From positions 1 to 21,392 of the forward strand of contig JAQUJJ010000058.1 in the NCBI GenBank assembly GCA_028681035.1: DNA of 21,392 nt, given 5' to 3'. Below the pieces are notes generated by a model, which saw only the letters and a program-made list of their open reading frames with translations, was not told the origin of the DNA and did not search any database. Both the position numbers and the translations under genes were made by a program. This DNA is from Candidatus Cloacimonadota bacterium (GTDB lineage Bacteria > Cloacimonadota > Cloacimonadia > Cloacimonadales > Cloacimonadaceae). This document shows positions 1,565 to 21,126 of this stretch, in pieces (position 1 is the stretch's first letter; each line of letters starts with the position of its first letter).

Positions 1565-1612
1565 GTAACTTCACACGCCTCGTGTGAAAACAGCCGGGGC
1601 GGCTGTTGTTAC
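1565..1612 (+). repeat. GTAAC-bounded twin-hairpin element, copy 1
   Basis: The element starts with GTAAC and ends with GTTAC. Between them are two 8-bp hairpins back to back: TTCACACG-cct-CGTGTGAA (1570-1588) and AACAGCCG-ggg-CGGCTGTT (1589-1607). With the outer 5-bp pair it can fold as a three-way junction or cruciform. A copy in the opposite orientation is at 13361-13409, and a longer relative at 18611-18687. It lies in the 549-bp gene-free stretch between the kinase and the HEPN-like gene. Confidence 0.75.
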
Positions 1613-3153: not shown

Positions 3154-3303
3154 GAGTATGCAGAGGAAACGACAAAAGTCCCTTGGGACGGCAGATATTA
3201 GCCTGAGGTGTAAACCTTCGGTATGCAGAGACAACGATTATAGTCCCTTGGGAAGAAAGATATTAGCCTGAGGTGTAAACCTCAGGTATGCAGATTATAA
3301 AGA
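3154..3303 (-). repeat. Left REP array upstream of the Y1 transposase
   Basis: Two direct units of about 65 bp begin at GTATGCAGAG (3157 and 3221). Each contains a GTCCCttGGGA hairpin (3178-3189, 3243-3252), GATATTAGC, and a variable stem. The second variable stem is CCTGAGGT-gtaa-ACCTCAGG (3267-3286). A third partial unit starts at 3287 (GTATGCAGAT). They are reverse complements of the units to the right of the transposase, so the gene is flanked by inverted arrays. Confidence 0.8.
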
Positions 3304-3340
3304 TAAAAACCCCTTGCGGGTGACAGAAACAGGAGGAAAA

Positions 3341-3775
3341 ATGGCAACATCCTATTGTTTTATGGCAGTACACATTGTGTTTTCCACAAAAGAAAGATAC
3401 CAATTCCTTTCAGGTGAGAACAATGAACATATGCACCAATATCTGGGAGGCATTATCCGCAACATTAAGGGTGAACCACTAATGATTAATGGGATGCCGG
3501 ATCATGTGCATGTGCTATGCCTGTTACCCAAAGAGATGAGTATTGCCGATTTTGTGCGAACCATAAAGGCAAACACCAGCAAATGGTTCCGAGAAAAACA
3601 TAATCCAAAGTTCGAATGGCAGGTGGGGTATGCTGCATTTTCGGTTAGTAAATCATCCCTGGAAATGGTTAAACAATACATAACTGACCAACAGAAACAC
3701 CATAGTAAGATGCTATCCATAGATGAAATGCGAATATTGATCGAGAAACATGGAATTCAAATGAATATAGAATGA
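3341..3775 (+). CDS. Y1 (HUH) single-strand transposase, IS200/RAYT-like
   Basis: 144 residues from the ATG at 3341, preceded by AGGAGG at 3331-3336. A TTG start at 3314 would add nine residues and has no such site. Family IS200/TnpA (Y1 transposase): it nicks single-stranded DNA at hairpin-marked ends using one tyrosine and a metal held by two histidines. Visible are the HUH motif DHVHV (H55, H57) and the catalytic helix VKQYITDQQKHH (Y113). FEWQVGYAAFSVSKSS is typical of the RAYT-related group found as single genes in Bacteroidota-type genomes. The length is normal for the family and the catalytic residues are present. No tnpB or other cargo gene follows. Instead REP-like hairpins lie on both sides in opposite orientation, the arrangement expected of a REP-associated tyrosine transposase that spreads short non-autonomous repeats. 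Confidence 0.9.
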   Translation: MATSYCFMAVHIVFSTKERYQFLSGENNEHMHQYLGGIIRNIKGEPLMINGMPDHVHVLCLLPKEMSIADFVRTIKANTSKWFREKHNPKFEWQVGYAAFSVSKSSLEMVKQYITDQQKHHSKMLSIDEMRILIEKHGIQMNIE

Positions 3776-3780
3776 GGCTT

Positions 3781-4364
3781 CCTGAGGCTCACGCCTCAGG
3801 CTAATATCTTTCGTCCCAAGGGACTATTATCGTCGTCTCTGCATACCGAAGGTTTACACCTCAGGTATGGATAGGAGTAGCAAACAAACCCCAAGGGGTG
3901 ACACAATAACTGGCAACAGATTGCTATATTGTTATATGTGTCGCCCTAAAAGGGCTTTATGTCTCTCTTAATGCTGACCTGGGGTTTCGCTTCGCTACAC
4001 CCCAGGCTAATATCTTTCGTCCCTGCGGGACTCTGGCAACAGATTGCTATATTGTTATATGTGTCGCCCTAAAAGGGCTTTATGTCTCTCTTAATGCTGA
4101 CCTGGGGTTTCGCTTCGCTACACCCCAGGCTAATATCTTTCGTCCCTGCGGGACTTTATCAACAGCCTGCGTTCCATGGGACTATTATCATCATCTCTAC
4201 ATACCGAAGGCTCACGCCTCAGGATAATATCTTTCGTCCCTGCGGGACTTTGTCAACAGCCTGCGTCCCAAGGGACTATTATCGTCGTCTCTGCTAACGG
4301 AGGTTTACACCTCAGGCTAATATCTGCCGTCCCAAGGGACAATTATTGCCGTCTCTACTTATCG
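3781..4364 (+). repeat. Right REP array
   Basis: About six units. Each has a variable hairpin, then CTAATATCTTTCGTCCC, a GTCCC/GGGAC hairpin, and often ATTATCGTCGTCTCTGCATA. Variable stems include CCTGAGGC-tcac-GCCTCAGG (3781-3800), CCTGGGGT pairing with ACCCCAGG (from 3981 and 4104) and GGCTCACGCC (from 4210). The GTCCC hairpin loop varies between aa and tgc. A second direct repeat, TCAACAGCCTGCGT, occurs near 4159 and 4252. Short reading frames of 64-71 codons across this stretch run through the repeats and are not genes. The array ends at the XRE remnant. Confidence 0.8.
3910..4155 (+). repeat. Perfect 123-bp tandem duplication inside the REP array
   Basis: Bases 3910-4032 and 4033-4155 are identical by eye. 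Each copy carries an AACAGATTGCTATATTGTTA stretch, a CCCTaaaAGGG hairpin and one full REP unit ending in GGGACT. The lack of any difference points to a recent duplication. Confidence 0.85.
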
Positions 4365-13360: not shown

Positions 13361-13409
13361 GTAACAACAGCCGCCCTCGGCTGTTAGCACTCGAGGCGAG
13401 TGCTGTTAC
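13361..13409 (-). repeat. GTAAC-bounded twin-hairpin element, copy 2 (inverted)
   Basis: GTAAC, hairpin AACAGCCG-ccct-CGGCTGTT (13366-13385), hairpin AGCACTCG-agg-CGAGTGCT (13386-13404), GTTAC. Reverse-complemented, it lines up with copy 1 at 1565: same order and bounds and the same AACAGCCG stem. The other stem differs at several bases but still pairs. It sits between the convergent thiS and trmFO genes and might also end transcription, although the nearest T-run begins about 15 bp further on. Confidence 0.75.
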
Positions 13410-14760: not shown

Positions 14761-14882
14761 ATCCATAACCATAGCAAAAAAGACAGCAAGCAAGTCAAGC
14801 GATTTCGACACATTGTTACCGCCGAGCTGGCTTACTCACAATTACTATGTTTAAATAGTGCAAAGCGGACATATCTAATAGG

Positions 14883-15055
14883 AACACGGATGGGGCTGAT
14901 TTTACGGATTTACACGGATTATTTAGCTTGATTATTATTATGGGATACTTAAGATGTAAATATTGGAGTCCCTTAGAGGCTCAAGTATTTTCCATATAAA
15001 CAGCATTATCCCCTTTTAATCCGTGCCAATCCGTAAAATCAGCCCCATCCGTGTT
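14883..15055. repeat. 39-bp inverted repeat with 95-bp centre
   Basis: The left arm (14883-14921) begins AACACGGATGGGGCTGATTT. The right arm (15017-15055) is its reverse complement at 37 of 39 positions. Inside each arm CGGATT recurs. The arms fill most of the 383-bp gap between trmFO and the MFS gene, which diverge from it, and no coding signal is seen in the centre. It could be a non-autonomous mobile element. Confidence 0.8.
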
Positions 15056-15143
15056 GCTATTTGTTATTTTGGGGATGCCTGATTTAGTTCTCTATTGACA
15101 GGATAATCTAATTCTAAAGATTGCTCTGGAAAAGGAGAACAAA

Positions 15144-16785: not shown

Positions 16786-16896
16786 GCCTACTTATCCGAA
16801 TCAGATCAGAAAGCGTACTGAACGGACTTTGATCGGGATTCAACCCGATTAGATCCCGATCGGATCCCGATCGGCTCGCTGTCGGATAAGCAAGCG
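16786..16896. mobile_element. 110-bp MITE-like element, copy 2
   Basis: The left end has CTTATCCGAA (to 16800) and the right end TCGGATAAGCAAGCG (16882-16896), inverted to each other. The interior has GATCGGG at offset 45 and GATCCCGATCGGATCCCGAT, as in copy 1 at 1400-1509. The short frame read on the minus strand here is only repeat sequence. Confidence 0.7.
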
Positions 16897-17268: not shown

Positions 17269-18699
17269 TTATCTTACAGCACAAAGATGCGTAAGGCGTT
17301 TTAGCAGAGAGCCTCGCAGGCTGTTTTGGCTGAGGTAGAGGTCGCTTACCACCGTTTTATTTATCACATAGATTTCGTTTTTACCATCGGCACCAGGTTT
17401 GCGAAAGCCCCAGGTATCGTGGATTGCATACGCTTTGCCGCCTGATTCACCTAGATATAGCATGATGTGTCCTTCCATGCGTAGCAAGCTGATTGCCGGA
17501 AGACCCTTTTGAATTATGATTCTTTCCCGCTTTGCCTCGCTATCCATAGGCTCAAAACCGTGTATCAGTTTGCTTACTTTTGCCTGTTGTAGTCCGTTGC
17601 GGGGTAGGCTAAAACCAAAGCAGGCGAAAATGCGCATAATAAGGCTGCTGCAATCATAATCGCCATCGGTATCTCCCCAGCCATAGGGCATATTCAGCAT
17701 CCTAAAGGCTTGTTTATACACATTACGGGCAGTATAGGGCAGATAACCCAAGTTGGCATCTTCCTTGGCGATATATGCTATGCCAAGGCTATCCTTTACC
17801 GGCATTTGTATCTGGTAATAATCGGCAGTCTCGGAAAGCAGCGGGAAAGCTGTTCCCATTCGGCAATAGCTTAGATACTGAGTGGCAGCAGCATCCTTCC
17901 AGATATCTGTTCTGGCTTTCAGGCTTAGCACTTTTTGGGTGGCACTAAGGTAAGAAACCCAATCCTGTTGCGAAACAAAACAAACTTCGCTAACCAAATA
18001 CCAGCCTACGGAAGTGGAGCAGGCACCATATACCCATTTGCCATCTTCGGAAGTGTGATAGAACAATGTGGGTGTGCCAATGTCATAACCGCTGTTCTGC
18101 ATTTCGTCGAACTCGATATCTAATACTGCTTTGTTCAGGTTTACAGTCGAGGGGGCATAACGCTGACGGGCTACTGTAACAGGAAAGCCAAAACGTACCT
18201 TCACACTTTGTGGTACTGCGTTAATGTTAGCGTTTTTGCGCAGCGAATCCAGCAATGCCTGGCTTACTTTCGCACCAGTGCTGTCATATTTGCCTATTTC
18301 TGATATGGTTTTAAGCAGGTCTTTTATCTGTGTTTTTACGGTGGAACCGGAAAAGTGAGATGAGTATTGCGTATATTTGGTGAAGGTGCCGTAGGGGTTG
18401 GTGCGAGAGTTGATCTTCGCTATTTGGCTGGGGGTCAAAATCAGCGAATCAGGGTTAGGATGGCGGGAAATCCAGTAACCGGCGGTATTCATTTCGGGGC
18501 TGGTGCATTCCAGCCTAGCGGGGGCAGCGTAGTGTACGGGTTCCAAGGGATTGCGGGCAAAGAGGTTAAAAGTGATTAAAACGAAAAACAACAGGCTCAG
18601 AATAGGCTTTGTAATTGCAGACGCACCGTCTGCATTGGTTTGCGGGGTTTGCTTTTCATGGTAACACACGAGGGCGTGTGTGGTTACGCTTTTGTTCAT
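17269..18699 (-). CDS. NlpC/P60 (C40) cell-wall peptidase with SH3-like domains
   Basis: 476 residues; the ATG at 18699 has GGAG in the end of tgt, six bases away, so the start is secure. A signal peptide is visible but displaced: the hydrophobic run ILSLLFFVLITFNLFA spans 33-48, preceded by about 26 residues encoded by a palindromic repeat. The middle part (about 165-320) carries SH3-like beta repeats (GKWVYGACSTSVGWYLVSE and LGIAYIAKEDANLGYL). The C-terminal NlpC/P60 domain has PYGWGDTDGDYDCSS with nucleophile C350, H411 in MEGHIMLYLG and H427 in HDTWG. The layout resembles exported gamma-D-glutamyl-diamino acid endopeptidases (YkfC-like) that trim peptidoglycan stem peptides. Last gene of the rseP-tgt string, 2 bp after tgt. 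Enzyme class is sure, exact bond inferred. Confidence 0.9.
   Translation of the reverse strand: MNKSVTTHALVCYHEKQTPQTNADGASAITKPILSLLFFVLITFNLFARNPLEPVHYAAPARLECTSPEMNTAGYWISRHPNPDSLILTPSQIAKINSRTNPYGTFTKYTQYSSHFSGSTVKTQIKDLLKTISEIGKYDSTGAKVSQALLDSLRKNANINAVPQSVKVRFGFPVTVARQRYAPSTVNLNKAVLDIEFDEMQNSGYDIGTPTLFYHTSEDGKWVYGACSTSVGWYLVSEVCFVSQQDWVSYLSATQKVLSLKARTDIWKDAAATQYLSYCRMGTAFPLLSETADYYQIQMPVKDSLGIAYIAKEDANLGYLPYTARNVYKQAFRMLNMPYGWGDTDGDYDCSSLIMRIFACFGFSLPRNGLQQAKVSKLIHGFEPMDSEAKRERIIIQKGLPAISLLRMEGHIMLYLGESGGKAYAIHDTWGFRKPGADGKNEIYVINKTVVSDLYLSQNSLRGSLLKRLTHLCAVR
18611..18687 (-). repeat. Twin-hairpin palindromic element inserted in frame in the peptidase gene
   Basis: It is bounded by GTAAT (18611) and GTTAC (18687). 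Hairpins are TGCAGACG-cac-CGTCTGCA (18615-18633) and CACACG-aggg-CGTGTG (18665-18680), with about 30 bp between. The CACACG stem and CCT loop are shared with the element at 1565. Translated on the minus strand it gives residues 5 to about 30 of the peptidase, between MNKS and the hydrophobic core of the signal peptide. Confidence 0.7.
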
Positions 18700-18701
18700 A
18701 T

Positions 18702-21126
<2,425 letters not shown>

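Follow-up and report, generated by a model that had tools for sequence, protein, structure and literature searches.

GTAG and CGTC repeats, as set out in the available part of PMC3733652, form head-to-head dimers; intragenic REPs are described there from several bacterial groups, and dimers or groups of repeats within genes can encode 20-30 residues. The same source cautions that many N-terminal REPs may be extragenic, through misannotation. The GTAG tag varies in some families (GYAG, GYRG, GTRG, GTMG, GTGG), and RPE-4 and RPE-6 are placed among the CGTC-tagged repeats (PMC3733652, same part). RPEs are 105-146 bp long and have been seen in 19 reading frames (PMC2229807, in its available part), and the RU-2/YPAL element of Yersinia contributes to a predicted signal peptide in YPO1552 (PMC2759123, in its available part). 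Because in-frame REP dimers and a repeat as part of a signal peptide are already published in these sources (PMC3733652, PMC2759123), the locus described below is a new example of a known phenomenon. The GTAA-tagged family and the peptidase case themselves are, to our knowledge, new; no report of such a family in Cloacimonadota was present among the matches listed in literature on Cloacimonetes palindromes and on REPs, signal peptides and in-frame insertion.

The window, that is, the whole stretch of 21,392 nt from a Candidatus Cloacimonadota bacterium that was analysed, holds an element of this kind in frame near the start of a predicted exported peptidase gene, and two further copies between genes (Table 1). 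Like the GTAG REP dimers described in the portion of PMC3733652 at hand, the element has a short hairpin with a four-base tag at one end, a stem of 6-9 bp, a small loop and compensated stem changes; it is dispersed, mostly intergenic, arranged in head-to-head pairs and in places in tandem clusters, it is sometimes in frame within ORFs, and its tags could provide stop codons. Unlike those repeats, its tag is mostly GTAA rather than GTAG and no linked RAYT was found for it (0 of 18 Y1 loci), and the phyla given for GTAG REPs in that portion of the paper do not include Cloacimonadota. With RPEs it shares, in the peptidase copy only, palindromic DNA in frame at a tolerated position of a protein gene; however, the family is mostly 47-58 nt long and GTAA-tagged, with neither the RPE length nor a CGTC-type terminus, and up to 128 copies yielded a single recognisable host gene instead of a recurrence in many genes. 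The likeness to RPEs drawn in an earlier note on this DNA therefore holds for the in-frame palindrome, but the copies lie almost all outside recognisable genes and a REP-dimer architecture is closer. The copies that the note expected elsewhere are present in the window and in related genomes, none of those examined being found in another recognisable gene, and the unrelated lineage that it pointed to is not a novelty, given the intragenic REPs already recorded in PMC3733652. Like RU-2/YPAL, the element is a small mobile repeat contributing to a predicted signal peptide; RU-2, as presented in the available part of PMC2759123, supplies part of a signal peptide and is proposed to help form a new protein, whereas here an existing signal peptide is lengthened in its n-region, and the two elements are unrelated by length and structure. 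On sequence features, the architecture is a better fit to GTAG-type REP head-to-head dimers than to RPEs.

Table 1. Positions of the repeat copies and of the peptidase locus in the window
Feature	Position	Strand	Basis
Intergenic element copy, 48 nt	1565..1612	-	gapped pattern; model E 1.6e-24 (sequence was in model)
Intergenic element copy, 49 nt	13361..13409	+	gapped pattern; model E 2.8e-26 (sequence was in model)
SH3_6 + NlpC/P60 exported peptidase (predicted), 476 aa	17269..18699	-	Pfam PF12913 and PF00877 over cut-off; homologues
Signal-peptide hydrophobic core, residues 33-44 (ILSLLFFVLITF)	18568..18603	-	hydropathy window
GTAA-tagged hairpin dimer, REP-dimer-like, 77 nt	18611..18687	-	sequence, scanner, alignment with ten family copies
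Hairpin B, GCAGACG-GTG-CGTCTGC	18617..18633	-	sequence / fold
Long spacer between hairpin units, 27 nt by scanner	18635..18660 (ends approximate)	-	scanner
Hairpin A, ACACACG-CCCT-CGTGTGT	18664..18681	-	sequence / fold
tgt (queuine tRNA-ribosyltransferase), immediately upstream of peptidase	18702..19814	-	start as listed; synteny
GGAG ribosome-binding site within tgt end (putative)	18705..18708	-	context conserved with empty-site orthologues

A GTAA-tagged repeat family in Cloacimonadota

A gapped pattern (GTAAC..TCG..GTTAC) revealed both intergenic copies in the window, against a shuffle mean of 0.12. The core CANNCGCCCTCGNNTG has six exact matches in the genome of HGW-Cloacimonetes-3 (G001), where the reversed-pattern control gave none. 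Of the 124 genomes of the phylum, 7 contained the core pattern: G009 had ten matches, G001 six and five genomes one each; these single matches are at chance level because the reversed-pattern control also gives five of them. Ten copies, aligned without the peptidase copy, gave the 49-base consensus GTAAT-GACAGCCG-CCCT-CGGCTGTC-TGCACACG-AGG-CGTGTGCA-ATTAC. In this ten-sequence alignment 5 of 20 stem pairs are altered on both sides, a count reached by none of 500 shuffles, with kinship between the sequences ignored.

The 124 Cloacimonadota genomes were searched with a covariance model (R1, made without the peptidase copy) at E<=0.01 and with stricter filters, up to 48 candidates being scored per genome. 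Twelve genomes gave matches, strong ones in three only, with 18 in G004, 17 in G001 and at least 48 in G009; about one match over all 124 genomes is expected by chance at this threshold. The other nine positive genomes had one to three weak matches (best E 7.5e-7 to 0.0072). A search of G009 alone, in which the best 150 of 907 candidates were scored, gave 129 matches; near-symmetric copies count on both strands in this figure. When the element itself was compared with five relatives by BLAST, only weak matches came back (best E 0.05); the family is visible only through the core pattern and the covariance model. At the three window copies no Rfam family reached the gathering score.

Each unit of the family is a GTAA-tagged hairpin with the tag on its outer side, and two units stand opposed, like REP dimers (BIME/REPIN). 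Among 72 copies, selected for an initial GTA or a near variant, GTAA forms the left tag in 50 and the right tag in 49; GTAG is the left tag of 6 and the right tag of 1. Length was taken over 69 copies and is 47-49 nt in 44 and 58 nt in 11, compared with 77 nt for the peptidase copy. Of 68 scanned pairs, 51 have a spacer of -2 to 2 between the units, three one of 3-4 and ten one of 7-13, and the peptidase copy has 27; the remaining three pairs are two tandem-neighbour artefacts and one locus (L092) with a spacer of 37. The stems are more variable than the loops and tags, the flanks lean to TC..GA, and the 72 copies show no consistent target-site duplication, a MITE feature (z at most 2.4 across many settings). 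One G009 locus (L064, contig C368, 10371-11210) carries nine copies in tandem at 99-base spacing, and further tandem arrays in that genome have 54-, 65-, 66- and 88-base spacing.

The copy in the peptidase gene

Read on the minus strand from 18687 down to 18611, the peptidase copy consists of a GTAAC tag, hairpin A, the spacer, hairpin B and an ATTAC tag. These limits are exactly those of the earlier note, which also read the twin-hairpin element correctly as in frame: in the frame of the ATG at 18699 it occupies residues 5-30, beginning at codon 5 (GTA) and ending within codon 30, so that the last of its 26 codons is partial. The two hairpin sequences are each unique in the window at up to three mismatches (0 in 100 shuffles), and hairpin B (TGCAGACG-GTG-CGTCTGCA) also matches its own reverse complement. 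The RNA fold of the whole 18611-18687 strand is unexceptional (z -1.74; 8 of 200 shuffles equally or more stable), and the reality of the element rests on the repeat family, not on the RNA fold. Paired GTA-tagged hairpins number 153 in 533 kb of fetched DNA versus 0, 0 and 0 in three Markov resamplings, a count that is no genome rate because the loci overlap and most were fetched for holding the element.

The covariance model R1 matched hairpin A with its tag (18661-18687) at E 7.6e-05 and the hairpin B half (18611-18643) at E 0.033 (plus strand) or 0.42 (minus strand). The score is weak because the spacer is 27 nt long instead of the -2 to 2 of 51 of the 68 scanned pairs; once a long spacer is allowed, the full copy aligns to the family, and outer tags, loop-closing CG motifs and stems all match. 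A 5-base direct repeat, AAAGC, lies on both sides of the insert.

Between codon 1 and the hydrophobic core, GTG11 is the only in-frame ATG, GTG or TTG and lies within hairpin A; TTG37 sits in the core already. The predicted n-region comprises 32 residues with a net charge of +1, and the hydropathy of the core is 2.94 versus 2.13-3.05 in the orthologues P0003-P0013, so that both charge and core are within the range of these proteins.

Empty site in relatives and insert in a sister protein

The tgt end and GTGGAGTARATATG are common to the window and to the G001 loci L001/L200, where the ATG runs straight into the core. Across tgt end, ribosome site and start, the junction reads ..ACTATTGTGGAGTAAATATGAAACTGAATCTGAGC in G001 and ..ACGATTGTGGAGTAGATATGAACAAAAGC followed by the element and AAAGCCTATTCTGAGC in the window; the same junction without the insert is present in L201 (G007) and L202 (G009). 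Twenty-four loci of the phylum encode the peptidase; 11 of them have tgt upstream in the same orientation, and in the other 13 it is unseen, partly from contig ends or a distant homologue. No covariance-model match was found at the peptidase gene start in the 24 loci (L216 being without that start). In L200 (G001) and L202 (G009) element copies follow the peptidase gene at its 3' side, and none lies inside it.

The start-to-core distance, from ATG to CTGAGC, is 99 bases in the window versus 12 in G001, a difference of 87 bases or 29 codons. An insert of 77 bases alone would break the frame, and therefore flank or spacer changes, of about ten further bases or small indels, are involved. The earlier note expected the N-terminus without the insert to read MNK-TKPILSLL; exact excision of the 77 bases does not yield this, since 77 is not a multiple of 3 and the frame is not restored. 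Given the shared start context and the absence of a model match at the gene start in relatives, the ATG is most simply ancestral, with the element arriving behind it. The peptidase start codon looks genuine, as tgt end, ribosome site and ATG are the same as in the empty-site orthologues; the firm start claimed in the note is upheld to this extent, but GGAG lies five, not six, bases before the ATG.

At the protein level 193 homologues were obtained, and the insert motif was sought in the 120 listed. Among these it occurs in the N-terminus of P0002 only, which is 84% identical to the window peptidase, has the same 476 aa and carries an insert of equal length (MNQLVTTHAPVCYPKKQATQPYAGEAFAITKP vs MNKSVTTHALVCYHEKQTPQTNADGASAITKP in the window); P0001 is 100% identical and is a fragment without the N-terminus. 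P0003-P0013 start where residue 30 stands in the window protein, directly ahead of the hydrophobic core, and close relatives thus lack residues ~5-30, as the earlier note had anticipated. The observation it named against its own reading, the same N-terminal residues without palindromic DNA, was absent in the orthologues with DNA, P0002 being compared as protein only. Identity between the window peptidase and P0002 is 15/25 over residues 5-29, 17/21 over residues 30-50 and 365/426 over the remainder (mature part); divergence of the insert faster than that of the mature part is as expected for a tolerated n-region extension.

Eight of nine hairpin-A residues are conserved in P0002 (VTTHAxVCY in both). 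The hairpin-B consensus of the family encodes A-x-E-A-x-A-I in frame +3, and the A-G-E-A-F-A-I of P0002 would fit a family hairpin B (GCA NNC GAG GCG NNT GCA ATT); judged from the protein, hairpin B of P0002 would be nearer to the consensus loop than that of the window copy. Long N-termini, without the insert motif, are also present in P0014, P0025, P0044 and P0019, and some of these may be misplaced starts. P0019 has a different repeat-like peptide before its signal core (SFPRRRESS..LDSRLRGND), and either its start is misplaced or a repeat may have been captured independently. Residues 1-40 used as a protein query gave no match, a result that is uninformative on other proteins with the peptide, because P0002, which shares several 5-residue words, was also missed.

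Copies in and near genes

The copies examined were 84 model matches with flanks, or up to 128 with scanner copies added, some possibly double-counted. Copies lie within 12 distinct frames of 120 codons or more, the peptidase included. Seven of the 11 others were given to Pfam (an RNase as its first 330 residues) and the RNase alone matched; the four left out of this set (L111, L115 and two in the L064 array) are all repeat-rich stretches. The RNase II-family gene of G001 (L095; weak model match, E 0.0015) was a candidate for a second in-frame case and was rejected because eight homologues from other genomes show no shorter spacing there. The open frames L099 and L146 were also rejected as insertions, because by eye the element precedes the start codon that is probably the native one. 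Up to 128 copies, with 7 of the 11 other long frames covered by Pfam, thus gave no further case in a recognisable gene. The copies are translation-permissive, being open in frame +1 in 60 of 69 and in frame +3 in 51 of 69. These data indicate that the element is not habitually intragenic and that the in-frame peptidase case is an exception, unlike RPEs.

Four open frames of 107 to 439 codons (L091, L119, L113, L137) stop at or within an element, and in L091, L119 and L137 the stop codon falls at the outer tag. Stop codons may thus come from the tags, a role described for GTAG repeats in the available part of PMC3733652.

Y1_Tnp genes are present in the three carrier genomes G001, G004 and G009, but G006 and G008, without a model match, have them too; in 18 Y1 loci taken from these five genomes no element copy is near the transposase. 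Y1-type (RAYT) transposases are held responsible for REP dimers, which the element resembles in its opposed tagged hairpins and absence of duplications, and it may be mobilised in trans by a REP-type transposase. At 3202-3865 the window has a Y1/IS200-like transposase ORF (to 3775) between 98-nt inverted arms that are 88% complementary. Four Rfam Acido-Lenti-1 RNA matches lie to the right of this ORF (3781-4249), the first inside the right arm, suggesting that the Acido-Lenti-1 'RNA' is possibly a transposase-recognised hairpin; no such match was found in 17 scanned Y1 loci of relatives. Other intergenic repeats of the window are a 104-base repeat with CCGATCGGATCCCGATCGG-like palindromes (1405-1508 and 16791-16894, 73% identical) and a pair of 70-base inverted arms, 80% complementary and built on a CACGGATGGGGCTGATTTTACGGATT repeat (14852-15086).

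Discussion

Most probably, a dispersed REP-dimer-like repeat inserted behind the peptidase ATG and is translated as a polar n-region, as a tolerated passenger rather than an adaptation. The insertion, directly after the start codon, would date from an ancestor shared by the window organism and the sister that carries P0002, and would have left ribosome site and ATG intact. As the net change in length is 29 codons, the frame stayed open, and it is open in both lineages, the sister being seen as protein only. The repeat would now be translated as a long polar n-region ahead of an ordinary hydrophobic core that would still direct export. Its persistence is most likely due to an n-region that tolerates extra residues and would be removed along with the signal peptide on cleavage, making the insert presumably neutral.

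It is unlikely that the insert is domesticated, as the earlier note had proposed, with an n-region or an early mRNA hairpin that is useful because it, for example, slows targeting, tunes translation after tgt or marks an export route. The length of the insert is exactly kept in P0002 with 8/9 hairpin-A residues retained, and a hairpin stands about 10 nt behind the start codon, both of which would suit such a role; however, no function is evident, the insert diverges faster than the mature part (15/25 vs 365/426), and the n-region net charge (+1) and the core are in the range of P0003-P0013. Furthermore, P0014 has an unrelated N-terminal extension, which suggests that the site tolerates extra residues. 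There is likewise only a slim chance that the GTAA-tagged REP-dimer family gave the peptidase a functional n-region (or a start-proximal mRNA hairpin) that has been selected since before the split of the two lineages; if true, the selected n-region or hairpin would be a REP element recruited to control export or translation.

Slightly less probable again is an untranslated element, with initiation downstream at GTG11, ATT29 or TTG37 and the repeat as 5' untranslated sequence, which is the common artefact with N-terminal REPs. The caution about misannotated N-terminal REPs in the available part of PMC3733652 points in this direction, and a start at ATT29 would give back nearly the ancestral length. 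Nevertheless, the codon-1 ATG and the ribosome site are common to the empty-site relatives, GTG11 is inside hairpin A with no obvious ribosome site (by eye), and TTG37 is within the hydrophobic core. ATT start codons are rare. In P0002, moreover, the frame is kept and no Met precedes the core, other start codons being invisible in a protein. If the N-terminal extension were native and its palindrome a product of chance with no relation to the repeat family, the deviant spacer length and modest model score would agree with this, but such an origin is highly improbable, as both outer tags, loop-closing CG motifs and stems align with the family, P0002 appears to read what the hairpin-B consensus encodes in frame +3, and the paired-hairpin scan gave 0, 0 and 0 in the Markov control versus 153 in loci mostly chosen for the element.

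The peptidase insert, behind an apparently ancestral start codon, is a cleanly polarised case, with an empty site in relatives, the same start context and an insert kept through one split. Because the case is polarised and no usable ATG or TTG lies behind the insert, the misannotation objection to N-terminal REP peptides is largely answerable here. Finally, the analysis adds a GTAA-tagged REP-like family in Cloacimonadota, and its stems, being more variable than its loops and tags, could be used to seek the enzyme that recognises it.
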